This document shows positions 22,717 to 41,149 of a DNA stretch of 41,149 nt, one piece after another. The position numbers and the translations under genes were made by a program. Below the pieces are notes generated by a model. That model was given only the letters and a program-made list of their open reading frames with translations, did not search any database and was not told where the DNA came from. Origin of the DNA: a virus. Numbering within the stretch: the first letter of the stretch is position 1; the number at the start of each line of letters is the position of its first letter. The stretch lies in IMG/VR virus record IMGVR_UViG_3300042392_000746, positions 1 through 41,149 of that record, one strand, 5' to 3'.

Positions 22717-23448
22717 ATGTCTGAAGAAGTACTAGCGGAAGTACCCGCGCCGGAACAGGAAGCCACGGCGGCACCTGAACCCGTAGAAGCACAGCCGGTA
22801 AAGGCGTTCACTCAAGAAGAGTTGGATGCCGCAATAGGAAAGAGGCTCGCACGCGAGCAACGAAAGTGGGAACGAGAGCGGGTAGTTGCTGCCCCTGTCG
22901 TCGCTGCTGATCCCAGACCGGAGCAGTTTGACTCGACTGAATCCTACGCCGATGCATTGGCGATGAAGAAGGCCGAGCAGCTACTCTACGAACGGGATGT
23001 GCAGCGCCAGCAGACAGAAGTTCTCGGTGCTTATCACGACAGGGAAGAAGAGGCAAGGAACAAGTACGATGACTTTGAACAGGTCGCGTACAACCCAAGC
23101 CTCAAGATCACGACCGTGATGGCACAGACGATCCAATCGTCGGATATTGGCCCTGATGTAGCCTACTACCTCGGTGCTAACCCGAAAGAAGCAGATCGTA
23201 TTTCCCGCTTGGCGCCTTATGTGCAAGCCAAAGAGATCGGACGTATCGAGGCCAAACTGGCCTCGGAACCGATGGTCAAAAAGACTTCTAGTGCTCCCCC
23301 GCCTTTTACGCCTGTCACGGCCAGCAGCAAGGGCGCATCGACCTACGATACAACTGATCCCCGCTCCATCAAGTCGATGAGCACTTCAGAATGGATCGCA
23401 GCCGACCGCGCTCGACAGGTGAAGAAGATGGAAGCACGCCTCCGCTAG
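22717..23448 (+). CDS. Scaffolding protein
   Basis: The 243-residue protein is acidic and helical. It has a Pro/Ala/Glu-rich start, FTQEELDAAIGKRLAREQRKWERER (a common scaffold signature) and a C-terminal basic helix (RARQVKKMEARLR) that may contact the capsid protein. It directly precedes the capsid gene, the usual order. It should guide procapsid assembly and then be released. Confidence 0.88.
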   Translation: MSEEVLAEVPAPEQEATAAPEPVEAQPVKAFTQEELDAAIGKRLAREQRKWERERVVAAPVVAADPRPEQFDSTESYADALAMKKAEQLLYERDVQRQQTEVLGAYHDREEEARNKYDDFEQVAYNPSLKITTVMAQTIQSSDIGPDVAYYLGANPKEADRISRLAPYVQAKEIGRIEAKLASEPMVKKTSSAPPPFTPVTASSKGASTYDTTDPRSIKSMSTSEWIAADRARQVKKMEARLR

Positions 23449-23476
23449 TTTTTAACCCTGAAAGGAATGTTAGGTC

Positions 23477-23529
23477 ATGTCAAACTCGATTCTTACCATC
23501 GACATGATCACCCGGAAAGCTCTGGAGAT
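23477..23529 (+). CDS. Major capsid protein, exon 1
   Basis: AAAGGA lies 10 nt upstream of this ATG. The exon gives MSNSILTIDMITRKALE plus the first two bases of an isoleucine codon. SILTIDMITR.AL is the standard start of P22-like and related capsid proteins. In unspliced RNA the frame stops after 19 residues (stop 23534-23536), so full capsid protein needs removal of the intron. Joining 23529 to 24286 gives KALEI-LENNLV, restoring both frame and family spacing; the joined length is 402 aa. Confidence 0.92.
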
Positions 23530-24285
23530 TAACTAATCGGTCTCCCCTGACGGCAACGTCAAGAAAAAAATTGTGTGAATTCGGTGGACGTCATGTAGAA
23601 TGATTACATGAAAATACCGAGCCAAGCCAAAGAAGAAGGTAATACGGAACTTGACGAAGCAACACGGGCTAAGAACCGTGAAGCGGCTGCTAGGTACCGT
23701 GAACGTAACCGGGAAGTCTTCAATCAGCGAATGCGCGATTGGCGAGCCAACAACCGAGAGAAGTCTCGGGAACACTCTCGCGAATGGCGCAACCGAAAGA
23801 TTGCAAATGGAACGCCAGAAGAAGTAACCGCCATGCGGCTTGCTGAAGCTGAAAAGACCAAGCGCAATCAGGACAAGCAACGAGAAGCAGTGTATGGCGC
23901 CTACGGCGGCTACAAATGCAACTGTTGCGGTGAAGCTGAGAAGATGTTCTTGTCAATAGACCACGTGCACAATGACGGGGCCGACATGAGAAAAGCCAAG
24001 TTGTACTCCGGTAGCGGAACAGGCTTTTATCTGTGGCTCGTCAAGAACAAGTTCCCTGAGGGGTTCCAAGTTCTGTGCATGAACTGTCAAATTGGCAAGC
24101 ACAAAAACGGCGGCGTTTGCCCTCATCAGCGGAAGGTGTAACGACTATCCCGAAAGGGAGTACAGCCAAGTGGCTGGAAGCGCACAACCCCTAGCAATAG
24201 GGTGAAGAGATAGTCTGCTCTGCATGGTGACATGCAGCAGCCCGAAAGGGCGGTTCAAGCCTAACGACCTTGAGCGAACACATGG
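23530..24285 (+). ncRNA. Group I self-splicing intron in the major capsid gene
   Basis: The intron catalyses its own removal. P1 pairs exon GGAGAU (ending 23529) with GUCUCC (from 23540), putting a U-G wobble at the 5' splice site. P2 is TGACG-GCAA-CGTCA (23548-23561). P3 pairs TTGTGTG (23571-23577) with CGCACAA (24181-24187). P7 pairs GACTA (24143-24147) with TAGTC (24211-24215). P8 is CCCTA-GCAA-TAGGG (24189-24202) and P9 CTGCATG-GTGA-CATGCAG (24220-24237). Extra GAAA-loop stems lie at 24148-24159 and 24240-24251. The last base is G. Stems between P7 and P3 suggest subgroup IA. The HNH gene sits between P3 and P7, in the P4-P6 region. Confidence 0.93.
23608..24141 (+). CDS. HNH homing endonuclease in the intron
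   Basis: The 177-residue protein has an Arg-rich N-terminus (residues about 20-65, three RxxN/RxW-like repeats) that should grip DNA, then an HNH nuclease with zinc ligands: KCNCCG (104-107), SIDHVHNDGADMRK (119-129), LCMNCQIGKHKNGG (156-169) and CPH (171-173). It should cut intron-less capsid alleles at the insertion site, letting repair copy the intron. Its stop codon ends one base before P7, so its mRNA overlaps the ribozyme core. No good ribosome site precedes the ATG, suggesting low translation. Confidence 0.93.
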   Translation: MKIPSQAKEEGNTELDEATRAKNREAAARYRERNREVFNQRMRDWRANNREKSREHSREWRNRKIANGTPEEVTAMRLAEAEKTKRNQDKQREAVYGAYGGYKCNCCGEAEKMFLSIDHVHNDGADMRKAKLYSGSGTGFYLWLVKNKFPEGFQVLCMNCQIGKHKNGGVCPHQRKV

Positions 24286-25441
24286 CCTAGAGAACAACCT
24301 GGTGCTCACCCGCAACGTCAACCGCCAATACGACGACTCGTTCGCCGTTGAAGGTGCAAAGATCGGCTCCACCCTGCGCATTCGTCTGCCCGACCGTGCT
24401 CTGGTGACCGATGGCGCCGCCCTGCAAGTTCAGGACGACAACGAGCAGTTCACCACGCTGACGGTCGCAAGCCAGAAGCACATTGGTGTCAACTTCACAT
24501 CTGCTGAACTGACCATGCAGTTGGACGACTTCGCGGAACGGGTTCTCAAACCCCGTATCTCGCAGTTGGCCTCCAGCATCGACGCTGATGTCGCCAACTC
24601 CTACAAGTCGATCTTCTCGACTGTTGGTACGCCTGGCACCACGCCGTCCACCTCGCTGGTTCTGCTGCAAGGCAACCAGAAGCTGAACGAGTACGCTGCT
24701 CCTATGAACGACCGCTACGCAACGGTGAACCCCGCCGCCAATGCGAACTTGGTCGAGGGCATGAAAGGCTTCTTCAACCCAACGTCTACTATCAGCCGGC
24801 AATTCACCGCAGGCATGATGGGCACTGGCGTTCTGGGCTACGACGAAGTCAACATGTCGCAGTCGATTGGGAACCACACCACTGGGTCACGCGCCGGCAC
24901 CACCTTGGTCAATGCAACGACCTTCACCCAAGGTCAGGCCACCATCACTCTGGACGGCTTTACCAGCGACACTACCGTTACTGTTGGTGATGTGTTCACG
25001 ATTGCTGGTGTGTACAGCGTCAACCCGCAGACCCGCCAATCGACCGGCAGTTTGCAGCAGTTTGTGGTGACCGTTGCCCAGACCGCATCCGGCGCTGACA
25101 TGGCAAACATGGCAATTTCGCCGCCCATGTACACCTCCAGCAACGCGCTGGCAACCATTGACGCCTTCCCTGCGAACAACGCAGCGGTCACTTTCGTCGG
25201 CGCGGCCTCCACGGGCTACCCGCAGAATCTGATCTACCAGAAGAATGCGATCACGTTTGCTACAGCTGACCTCTTGCTGCCGCAGGGCGTGGACATGGCT
25301 TCGCGCCAGGTCCATAACGGCATCTCGATGCGTATTGTTCGTCAGTACGACATCAACAATGACCGTATGCCTTGTCGTATCGACGTTCTGTACGGGTACA
25401 GCGTCATCCGTCCGCAAATGGCCGTGCGCCTCTGGGGCTAA
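24286..25441 (+). CDS. Major capsid protein, exon 2
   Basis: This exon encodes the rest of the shell protein. It reads on as LENNLVLTRNVNRQYDDSF, then AKIGSTLRIRLPDRA, DNEQFTTLTVASQKHIGV and DDFAERVLKPRISQLASSID, matching the P22-type (HK97-fold) capsid family. The spliced length of 402 residues is normal. A start at 24224 lies inside the intron and is not used. The 3' splice site after G24285 is the only choice that keeps the frame, uses a terminal G and keeps the usual NVNRQYDD spacing. Confidence 0.95.
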
Positions 25442-38546: not shown

Positions 38547-38763
38547 CGTTTTTCTCCTTAAGTGCTTGCTCTGTCAACATTATTGCCCACTCAATATTTG
38601 GTGAGTTTTCGGCAATAAGCTTTGCATGTAGTTTAGCTAGCCCCTGCCATTGGGGTTTTGTGTAAAGCAGTTTTTCCTCAATGGCATTAGCAATTAGTCG
38701 GCGCTCTTGCGTCTTATCTTTGCTGCGCTGCTGAAAGCAGTCGTGGATTTCTTCGTCTGTCAT
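38539..38763 (-). CDS. 74-aa hypothetical protein, complete copy
   Basis: Full-length form of the gene truncated at 1-204. It begins TDEEIHDCFQQRSKDKTQERR, has EEKLLYTKPQWQGLAKLHAK, and a C-terminal MLTEQALKEKNGD. It overlaps its upstream neighbour as ATGA and the 79-aa gene by 8 nt. Part of it lies inside the redundancy. Confidence 0.8.
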   Translation of the reverse strand: MTDEEIHDCFQQRSKDKTQERRLIANAIEEKLLYTKPQWQGLAKLHAKLIAENSPNIEWAIMLTEQALKEKNGD

Positions 38764-38933
38764 TCGTTCTTCTCCTTTTCTTTTGGTCCGTTAAACATAG
38801 CCACGCCAAGCTGATCAAGCATTACTGCCTTCAAGTTCTCCCGATCTTTTTCTGGAAGTTTATTGACAACTTCTTCCATGATTTTCCAAATGCTTGCAGC
38901 AACTTCTTTTGCCGGGATGATGGTGTTCATCAT
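38760..38933 (-). CDS. 57-aa hypothetical protein, second copy
   Basis: Identical to the gene at 201-374, same overlaps on both sides. Confidence 0.7.
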   Translation of the reverse strand: MMNTIIPAKEVAASIWKIMEEVVNKLPEKDRENLKAVMLDQLGVAMFNGPKEKEKNE

Positions 38934-39079
38934 TGCGCTCTCCGGTGAACATATACCGATACTCCCGTATCGGGGTCTGTGTAATCTAATGCGGGTTCAC
39001 ACCAGCAGGTCTCACTATCAATGTGCTCAGGTTCGGGCAGGTCTTCCTCCCCTTCAGTTTTCCCCCAGTCGCATGACAT
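38930..39079 (-). CDS. 49-aa acidic small phage protein, second copy
   Basis: Identical to the gene at 371-520, with the CWCEPAL and VYVHRR motifs. Confidence 0.7.
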   Translation of the reverse strand: MSCDWGKTEGEEDLPEPEHIDSETCWCEPALDYTDPDTGVSVYVHRRAQ

Positions 39080-39348
39080 TACGGTTTCACCTTTCTATTC
39101 CTTGCCAGCGTAGCAACAACGTTTGTCTCTGACCTGCCCTGTTCATACCCGATAAGATACATCTCTACGAGTGACCAATCATATAACCGGGCAATGACAA
39201 CGTCTTTGCCGTAGGGCGGCTTGTCCGCAACAATGTTGATGGTGTTATTGCCATCCCCACGCTCAAGACGGAACCCATTGTGTGCGGCCATGTCTTTGCA
39301 GTATTCAATGCGGGATTCGATTATCCAAGGGTTTGGGTTTACGCTCAT
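39079..39348 (-). CDS. 89-aa hypothetical protein, second copy
   Basis: Identical to the gene at 520-789. Confidence 0.75.
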   Translation of the reverse strand: MSVNPNPWIIESRIEYCKDMAAHNGFRLERGDGNNTINIVADKPPYGKDVVIARLYDWSLVEMYLIGYEQGRSETNVVATLARNRKVKP

Positions 39349-39551
39349 GGCTCAATCCCAAAATGGTTCATTATCAAAGACTTAACGGTATCGCCGCAGT
39401 AACATTCTTCCGCCAACTCGGCGCACTCCATGATGATACGGTCGGCGAACTTCTCCACGTTGATGTAGTCGGCGGTGCATTCCTCCCGCCCGCGACTGTC
39501 AACCGTAACGTCAAAGCAGCCGTCCATTAGTTTTCTAATTCTTTCGTTCAT
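39345..39551 (-). CDS. MNERI-type protein, second copy of paralogue 1
   Basis: Identical to the gene at 786-992. Confidence 0.8.
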   Translation of the reverse strand: MNERIRKLMDGCFDVTVDSRGREECTADYINVEKFADRIIMECAELAEECYCGDTVKSLIMNHFGIEP

Positions 39552-39754
39552 GGCTCAACTCCAAAATGAAACCTGATGGCCGTTACCCCAGACGCCCCTT
39601 GGGGGCCGCTCGCCTTCACCACTCGGGCGCACTCCAACACCACAAGCTCGGTAAATTCTTCCAACGATGCTTTCTGCACCGGGCCAATGCTGACCCAATC
39701 ATTTAAACGCTCAAGCCCAGGGCGAGCAAGTATTTCTTTAATTCGTTCGTTCAT
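39548..39754 (-). CDS. MNERI-type protein, second copy of paralogue 2
   Basis: Identical to the gene at 989-1195. Confidence 0.8.
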   Translation of the reverse strand: MNERIKEILARPGLERLNDWVSIGPVQKASLEEFTELVVLECARVVKASGPQGASGVTAIRFHFGVEP

Positions 39755-39981
39755 AACTCAACCCTCTGATTAATGCCCAACATCTCTCGATGCAGGTTCT
39801 CCAGCATCACCCGGTAGGGTGACTGGGGCAGGCAGTCCGTTGCCAGCTTGCATCGTTCTGCAAATGCATCAGTGCGTACAGCTTCGCGTACAACGGCCCG
39901 CACCTTGGCAAGCATGTCGTCAGGGTGAACACTGGTCGGCCAATGCCACCCCATCAGTTCGGCAATGCGTTCATCGGTCAC
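39751..39981 (-). CDS. MTDERI-type protein, second copy
   Basis: Identical to the gene at 1192-1422. Confidence 0.75.
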   Translation of the reverse strand: MTDERIAELMGWHWPTSVHPDDMLAKVRAVVREAVRTDAFAERCKLATDCLPQSPYRVMLENLHREMLGINQRVEL

Positions 39982-40355
39982 GATGCAACTCCTTTCGTCT
40001 TCTCAAAAGTTCTGAGGCCACCGAGCCCGAGCATCCCCAACATCAACTGCCACAAGTTATCGTCGATGCCAGGCAGCGCAGGCAGCGGGTGGTCAAGCAC
40101 AATACCGGTCCACTGGACTAGCGGCCTGGCGATATATTGACACGCCAGCGCCGACGCGCAGACCCAGCCAATCGCTGGGCGCCAGCCGCTGGTAAACGCG
40201 CTGGGGCTAGACGCCTCGGCCTTGTTCACATCGAGTTGACCTTGCACGATGGCGACCTGAGCGGCAAGTTGCGCCGCCTCGGCGGCTGACTTGTCCGGCC
40301 AAATTCGGGTGATGACTGTTTGCGCCAGTTCGACGCCTGCGGTCAGTGGGTCCAT
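39978..40355 (-). CDS. Putative 3-TM holin, second copy
   Basis: Identical to the gene at 1419-1796; start chosen by the same GGAG site. Confidence 0.85.
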   Translation of the reverse strand: MDPLTAGVELAQTVITRIWPDKSAAEAAQLAAQVAIVQGQLDVNKAEASSPSAFTSGWRPAIGWVCASALACQYIARPLVQWTGIVLDHPLPALPGIDDNLWQLMLGMLGLGGLRTFEKTKGVAS

Positions 40356-40765
40356 TCGCCTGTCTCCATCTGTAGTGCCATGCGATGCGCTCGTGCTGGC
40401 GTCTGCCGTGCCCAAGTGCTCTCCACCATCTGCGCAGCAGCCTCAAAGTACTGGCCGTCCTCAACCGCCGATAGCATCCGCTTGAACTGAAGCAAACCCT
40501 TCATACCCATCTGGAACGCCATGCCGATCAGCACGGCCTGACGCGGCTCGGACAGTCTAGGCATCCACGGCAGCGCCAACAATACCTCGCGGGTCTTGGT
40601 CTTGATGTCGTTCTCAAGCAGGAAGTCGATCTCGTCTGGCGACAGCCCGCCGCCCTTGCGCGAGTCAATCAAGCGGCCCACGCCGATGGTCCAGTATCCA
40701 AGCGAGTCTTGGTAGGCGCAGGACTCGGCGCCCTCTTCCCGCAGCAGTTGGCTCTTCAAGTCCAC
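40343..40765 (-). CDS. T4-type lysozyme, second copy
   Basis: Identical to the gene at 1784-2206, with the same GTG start and E11/D20/T26 triad. Confidence 0.92.
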   Translation of the reverse strand: MDLKSQLLREEGAESCAYQDSLGYWTIGVGRLIDSRKGGGLSPDEIDFLLENDIKTKTREVLLALPWMPRLSEPRQAVLIGMAFQMGMKGLLQFKRMLSAVEDGQYFEAAAQMVESTWARQTPARAHRMALQMETGEWTH

Positions 40766-40944
40766 AATGTTGCTCCCCATGCAAGGACTAAAACCCAGAG
40801 AACAAAAACCACGGCGCGGTTGACCCCGCTCCACCGGTTTCGGTAGTGGGTGATGGCGTAACCGTCGCCGCCGAAGGCTTCGTCAAGCGACCGTGCAAAC
40901 CGCTTAGTTGTTCCGTTGTGCTGAACCTGTGTTCGTTGTAACAT
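40756..40944 (-). CDS. Small C-terminal membrane protein, second copy
   Basis: Identical to the gene at 2197-2385. Confidence 0.7.
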   Translation of the reverse strand: MLQRTQVQHNGTTKRFARSLDEAFGGDGYAITHYRNRWSGVNRAVVFVLWVLVLAWGATLWT

Positions 40945-41027
40945 TTGTATCGTCTCCAAGTTAGGTTATCGGGGCGTTGCCGAGTCTCAAGCACGCCGGC
41001 TGGCGCGTTACAGCGGGGGCACTGCAT
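40788..41027 (-). CDS. Zinc-ribbon-like small protein, second copy
   Basis: Identical to the gene at 2229-2468. Confidence 0.6.
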   Translation of the reverse strand: MQCPRCNAPAGVLETRQRPDNLTWRRYKCYNEHRFSTTEQLSGLHGRLTKPSAATVTPSPTTETGGAGSTAPWFLFSGF

Positions 41028-41139
41028 ACAACGGCACCGCATCGCATCCAAGGTCTACCCAGTACTGCATCTCTTCGCGGCGCCGAGTGAGCAAGATGCA
41101 AACATTGCTCTCAAGGATCATCCAACCGATGTGCGTCAT
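41008..41139 (-). CDS. 43-aa hypothetical protein, second copy
   Basis: Identical to the gene at 2449-2580; the window ends 10 bases upstream of its start. Confidence 0.65.
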   Translation of the reverse strand: MTHIGWMILESNVCILLTRRREEMQYWVDLGCDAVPLYAVPPL

Positions 41140-41149
41140 GCCAACCACG

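Follow-up and report, generated by a model that had tools for sequence, protein, structure and literature searches.

We report that the major capsid gene of a freshwater phage is split at codon 18 by what we read, with a probability of about 0.9, as a mobile, homing group I intron, whose nuclease probably shares its target with a related free-standing nuclease encoded upstream of intact copies of the gene. By "the window" we mean the whole stretch of DNA analysed, the 41,149-nt IMG/VR record IMGVR_UViG_3300042392_000746. New at this locus are the free-standing relatives upstream of intact capsid genes, the co-conversion footprint and the presence of three alleles in one lineage. How mobile introns gain nuclease genes is an open question, the entry of site-specific free-standing nucleases (PMC3984707) standing against nuclease turnover (PMC10448857), and the capsid locus offers an empty site, a free-standing nuclease, an ORF-less intron and an intron with a nuclease at one and the same site, three of these four states being found within near-identical phages. 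A contest of two forms of one selfish element would thereby be observable at a single site of a shell gene. The features of the locus, all on the plus strand of the window, are as follows.

22717-23448, plus: scaffolding protein gene, directly upstream of the capsid gene (phrog_8865, 1.8e-30)
23447-23529, plus: putative co-converted patch, 5' portion, at capsid positions -30 to +53 (the patch runs on to +57 = 24289), from the window against L007
23477-23529, plus: exon 1 of the major capsid gene (17 codons and AT), from the reading frame and the junction against intron-less relatives
23524-23545, plus: P1, predicted between exon GGAGAU (23524-23529) and guide GUCUCC (23540-23545), with U.G at the splice site
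23530-24285, plus: predicted group I intron, 756 nt, with a final G (omega-G), from Rfam Intron_gpI, same-site relatives, helices and covariation
23571-24215, plus: predicted catalytic core, pairs counted over 39 distinct cores, coordinates from sequence; it also holds P6 (which surrounds the ORF), P7.1, P7.2 and P8
23571-23577/24181-24187, plus: P3
23580-23586/23615-23621, plus: P4
23608-24141, plus: HNH nuclease ORF of 177 amino acids in the P6 loop, its ends overlapping the RNA core (phrog_2255, 1.3e-7)
24143-24147/24211-24215, plus: P7
24220-24274, plus: P9, P9.1 and P9.2 hairpins, from the core comparison
24286-25441, plus: exon 2 of the major capsid gene (product matching Pfam P22_CoatProtein, 5.8e-36)

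The ATG at 23477 opens the frame MSNSILTIDMITRKALEI-N-stop, which comprises 17 whole codons and the AT of codon 18 and has TAA as codon 20, and the capsid frame picks up again at C24286. Joining T23529 to C24286 gives a single ORF of 402 amino acids whose full length (1-402) matches phrog_283 (8.4e-76), and this family match over the whole joined protein supports its membership of the P22-like major capsid proteins. Aligned with capsid homologues, the joined protein is matched end to end by the intact IMG/VR capsids L006 and L007 with 100% amino acid identity, by that of MW202483 with 78.6% and by that of OR003940 with 72.5%. Since intact genes encode the identical 402 residues, both the interrupted gene and the place of the insertion are known, and since intron-less relatives are continuous exactly at the window junction (GAG ATT CTC GAG AAC, against GAG AT / C CTA GAG AAC in the window), the cuts proposed in the initial annotation, after 23529 and before 24286, are correct. 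With the 3' junction and the intron nuclease as queries, scans of IMG/VR revealed the identical split at the identical codon in 65 distinct loci, the window record not counted; a few of these loci represent the same phage as the window. Given this recurrence, the split is not due to chance or to an assembly error. The same junction used against bacterial genomes gave 49 matches, none of them with a capsid hit, and we found no description of this capsid locus in the open-access literature, a coverage outside which most subscription journals lie. Exon 1 appears to be under purifying selection, the same-site intron loci differing in it by 392 synonymous versus 72 non-synonymous codon changes, and the GAG AT on the 5' side of the splice site is nearly invariant in the intron loci only (entropy 0.06 versus 0.34-0.41). 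Because exon 1 is only 17 codons long, automatic gene prediction can get the capsid gene wrong in phages of this kind.

The identity of the insert was examined through its RNA. The window scanned against Rfam at the gathering cut-off gave no match, and its ORF-bearing intron scored 27.9 bits with Intron_gpI (E 5.8e-5), under the cut-off of 50, a low score attributable to the 534-nt ORF that sits in P6. The ORF-less introns at the same site (L089, L103, L104 and L127, 248-257 nt long), however, pass this cut-off with 64-75 bits. Across 39 distinct cores, P1, P2, P3, P4, P6, P7, P7.1, P7.2, P8, P9, P9.1 and P9.2 can be formed in nearly all members, the P3/P7 pseudoknot is kept, and compensatory changes are seen in P1, P2, P3, P7.1, P7.2, P8, P9, P9.1 and P9.2; P7 is invariant (GACUA/UAGUC, 39/39). 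The U at the exon end is paired with G at the splice site in every one of the 39 cores, and each same-site intron listed ends in G. The outermost pair of P1 is GC in 29 cores, UA in three and UG in one, with a mismatch in six. Most members show, as judged by eye, only a weak P10 pairing to exon 2. P5 and P6a are folded differently in ORF-less and ORF-bearing introns. Between P7 and P3 lie the hairpins P7.1 and P7.2, with compensatory changes; such extra hairpins mark subgroup IA of the group I introns. Taken together, the splice-site U.G, the terminal G, the scores of the ORF-less relatives and the covarying core helices support the earlier assignment of the capsid insert as a group I intron, and the comparisons lend good support to the view that capsid supply would depend on RNA splicing. 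The initial annotation had overlooked the role of the HNH nuclease, the siblings that lack the intron, the free-standing nuclease and the co-conversion footprint.

The ORF in the P6 loop bears the marks of a homing-type nuclease. Its C-x2-C / FL[ST]IDHxxN / CMNC motif is intact in 88 of 88 nuclease relatives, all of which keep the zinc-type cysteines, the D-H and the central N, so that an intact nuclease ORF of the kind expected of a mobile intron lies inside the insert. Pfam gave the nuclease no clear assignment. The AlphaFold model of the window nuclease is confident (mean pLDDT 86), and neither a profile search of the PDB nor a structure/fold search returned anything significant, the best structural hit being the T5 SciA endonuclease (E 0.16); no protein of an isolate phage matched over 80% of the nuclease length. 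A hairpin around P5, absent from the ORF-less introns, contains the start codon of the nuclease ORF and may hold back its translation in the folded RNA. A P6 loop without an ORF is seen in the ORF-less introns, one of which (L089) and an ORF-bearing one (L151) agree at all 203 core columns compared outside P5-P6 and have different P5-P6 segments, a pattern from which the nuclease ORF appears to have been gained and lost at this intron. As a separate observation made by eye, the C-terminal halves of the HNH proteins of L111, L138 and L168 resemble other HNH lineages, which suggests recombination inside the nuclease gene.

Mobility is indicated by the exon sequence next to the insertion site. 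When the window was compared with the intron-less L007, 32 differences fell in an 87-nt patch versus 22 in the 1876 nt outside it; the patch spans capsid positions -30 to +57, its 3' edge coincides with the insertion site (between 53 and 54), and intron-bearing relatives differ from the window by just 1-3 positions within it. More generally, a patch of about 85 nt separates intron-bearing from intron-less siblings whose surrounding DNA is 96-99% identical. Over all pairs with closely matching flanks, patch divergence had a median of 25% (range 19-29%) between intron-bearing and intron-less phages (42 pairs, which share ancestry and fall into about six independent lineages and thus are not 42 independent events), as compared with 1% between two intron-less phages (62 pairs) and 2% between two intron-bearing ones (30 pairs). 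Co-conversion of flanking DNA is the expected outcome of homing (PMC3984707), and we consider the patch a putative footprint of this process, which, along with the presence and absence of the intron in close relatives, is what a mobile intron should leave.

Relatives of the intron nuclease also exist outside introns. In 35 distinct loci recovered by the IMG/VR nuclease scan they are separate genes that end near the start of an intact capsid gene, placed between the scaffolding and capsid genes, and their products are 66-77% identical to the intron nuclease. The free-standing gene was present in 11 of 111 intact loci of a sample not chosen for it, versus none of the 61 intron loci for which 650 nt or more of upstream sequence was available, counted in the stretch upstream of the capsid gene (Fisher p 0.008, uncorrected for shared ancestry). 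The scaffold side of the pair L015/L210 is 99.7% identical up to the insertion point and the capsid gene differs only to about +57, a position at which the tract ends in 6/7 free-standing-nuclease pairs. Since this transfer tract ends at the intron site, the free-standing homing nuclease probably targets the same capsid codons as the intron nuclease. Moreover, its carriers are recoded there: codon 16 is TTR in 29/31 free-standing-nuclease alleles versus 6/135 empty alleles, and codon 20 is GAA in 27/31 versus 29/135, both changes being synonymous and flanking the intron site on its two sides. One phage lineage holds all three alleles, with L015 (empty), L184/L185 (intron) and L210/L211 (free nuclease) 98.8-100% identical over the compared exon 2. 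The intron-linked exon 1 patches are nearest to the empty allele in 33 cases and to the free-standing-nuclease allele in 6, with 6 ties, and so the latter alleles find no support as the main source of these patches.

From the intron architecture, the empty sites, the allele-linked patches and the shared tract ends, all of which can be read directly in the genomes compared, we infer that the intron splices itself out, that both nucleases cleave near codon 18 and that repair drives the transfer. After transcription the intron RNA would fold, with the exon end GGAGAU pairing to the guide GUCUCC, and would excise itself to leave a joined message for the 402-residue capsid protein. In capsid genes that lack the intron, the HNH nuclease from the P6 loop would make its cut at the insertion site or in its immediate vicinity, and the intron would spread, along with some 80 nt of its 5' flank, when the break is repaired from a copy that carries it. 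The related nuclease encoded upstream of intact capsid genes would probably target the same codons, each carrier being protected by having its target either split, as by the intron, or recoded, as with the free-standing gene.

Two readings would do without splicing or without homing. If the insert were not spliced, exon 2 could be translated from a start inside it, with an altered capsid N-terminus, an arrangement comparable to that of nrdA in Aeromonas phage Aeh1, which is divided by an HNH insertion that is not spliced (PMC7344957), and the window does have a fitting in-frame ATG at 24224 (405 amino acids). However, just 36 of the 66 same-site loci offer any in-frame start codon ahead of exon 2, whereas the joined frame is open in all 66 and the intron length modulo 3 is 0, 1 and 2 in 37, 12 and 17 cases, and therefore unspliced expression and inteins are poor explanations. 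Given in addition the apparent purifying selection on exon 1, whose residues intact relatives keep, and the conserved, covarying RNA core, we regard the unspliced reading as very improbable. An intein is ruled out by the stop codons and by intron lengths not divisible by three, and a programmed frameshift by a gap of hundreds of nucleotides. The divergent 5' patch could instead reflect a hot spot of ordinary recombination where the scaffold and capsid genes meet, with no tie to homing, and 5 of the 62 intron-less pairs do differ by more than 15% in it. A hot spot does not account well for a patch that is conserved within allele classes and differs only between them, nor for its 3' edge, which lies at the insertion site in 6/7 intron-bearing/intron-less comparisons (in L147 it extends to about +120), and we consider this reading unlikely, though less so than that of an unspliced insert.

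A further possibility, compatible with the homing-intron reading, concerns the origin of the intron nuclease, namely that its gene derives from a free-standing gene that was already specific for this site before it entered an ORF-less intron located there, the route described as collaborative homing (PMC3984707). The ORF-less introns at the site, the similarity of the free-standing relatives, their tract end at the intron site and the three alleles of one lineage all agree with it; escape from the intron, or nuclease turnover (PMC10448857), would look similar, the two genes were never found together in the intron loci counted above, and in the HNH tree, which is unrooted, free-standing forms do not branch deeper than intronic ones. 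Rooting this tree with distant phage HNH proteins failed owing to long branches, and a scan for nearer outgroups gave only relatives of 36-50% identity. We put this origin at slightly less than even odds. By a narrow balance we favour a broader interpretation of the homing intron, in which one codon of an essential capsid gene would be contested, inside individual phage species, by an HNH homing nuclease in two alternative forms, the upstream free-standing gene with its synonymously recoded target against the intron copy that splits the target. With transfer tracts that take in the same stretch of about 80 nt, each form would displace the other, and the free-standing form and the ORF-less introns would have supplied the pieces of the mobile intron.

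The initial annotation held introns in capsid genes to be unusual, and this is partly right and weaker than stated, since a capsid intron of mycobacteriophage LittleE has been published, with splicing demonstrated by RT-PCR and protein sequencing, and another is cited for Tuc2009 (both in PMC3706429). LittleE resembles the window in its split major capsid gene, probable group I class, U/G ends, nuclease ORF and intron-less relatives, and differs from it in capsid lineage, in insertion site and in the intron ORF, which is LAGLIDADG-like and on the opposite strand; LittleE is not known to have a same-site intron family or a free-standing counterpart at the site. The F-CphI/psbA system of cyanophage S-PM2 is similar in having a free-standing nuclease beside the gene that is specific for the group I insertion site (PMC6083498). 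However, there the intron and the free-standing nuclease occupy one genome, an arrangement that the upstream stretches of our 61 intron loci lack, whereas at the capsid locus they are alternative alleles; F-CphI has an Endo VII motif (DHHRN) whereas the capsid-locus nucleases are related HNH proteins, and the host gene is psbA rather than a capsid gene (PMC6083498). In T3/T7-like phages and ICP1, too, a free-standing nuclease is paired with an intron at the same locus of a shared genome, in contrast to the alternatives at the capsid locus (PMC10448857). An intron with an HNH ORF is likewise known from the DNA polymerase gene of a T7-like cyanophage (I-PfoP3I, PMC3428280), and HNH group I introns such as this one reside in replication or metabolism genes, unlike that of the window.

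Stretches of the window intron, for the most part in its 3' core, have matches in 645 phage records, with identities of 60-99%. Podoviridae sp. ctDrO704 (MW202512) likewise has a group I core (47.5 bits, E 9e-10) and an HNH protein 41% identical to that of the window, upstream of a split capsid gene, whereas its major head gene belongs to an unrelated capsid family (phrog_334) and is interrupted at another site; this region (L254:2300-3050) was deposited without an intron annotation, as 'icea protein' and a truncated capsid. In MW202674 (L003:1780-2030) the annotation divides a P22-type coat gene into two parts separated by about 220 nt, and the gap, which has no Rfam match at E 0.5, looks by eye like an ORF-less intron at a different site, with GACUA/UAGUC and hairpins. 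ORF01 of Cronobacter phage vB_CsaP_009 (LC519601.1 376-867; L004:2586-3077) is labelled 'major capsid protein' in one record and HNH endonuclease in the RefSeq version; it adjoins primase/helicase and its surrounding DNA matches the window intron, so that the capsid label is likely a mis-annotation, and we rejected it as a case of a capsid intron.

The window carries an exact terminal direct repeat of 2590 bp (positions 1-2590 equal 38560-41149), and the contig is a circular or terminally redundant genome of about 38.56 kb that was read past its own start. Within exon 2, the capsid genes of L106, L101, L150 and L164 differ from the window by 35-57% in one 100-nt block at about nt 650-750 and are 90-98% identical to it outside this block, which suggests the exchange of a surface or insertion domain.
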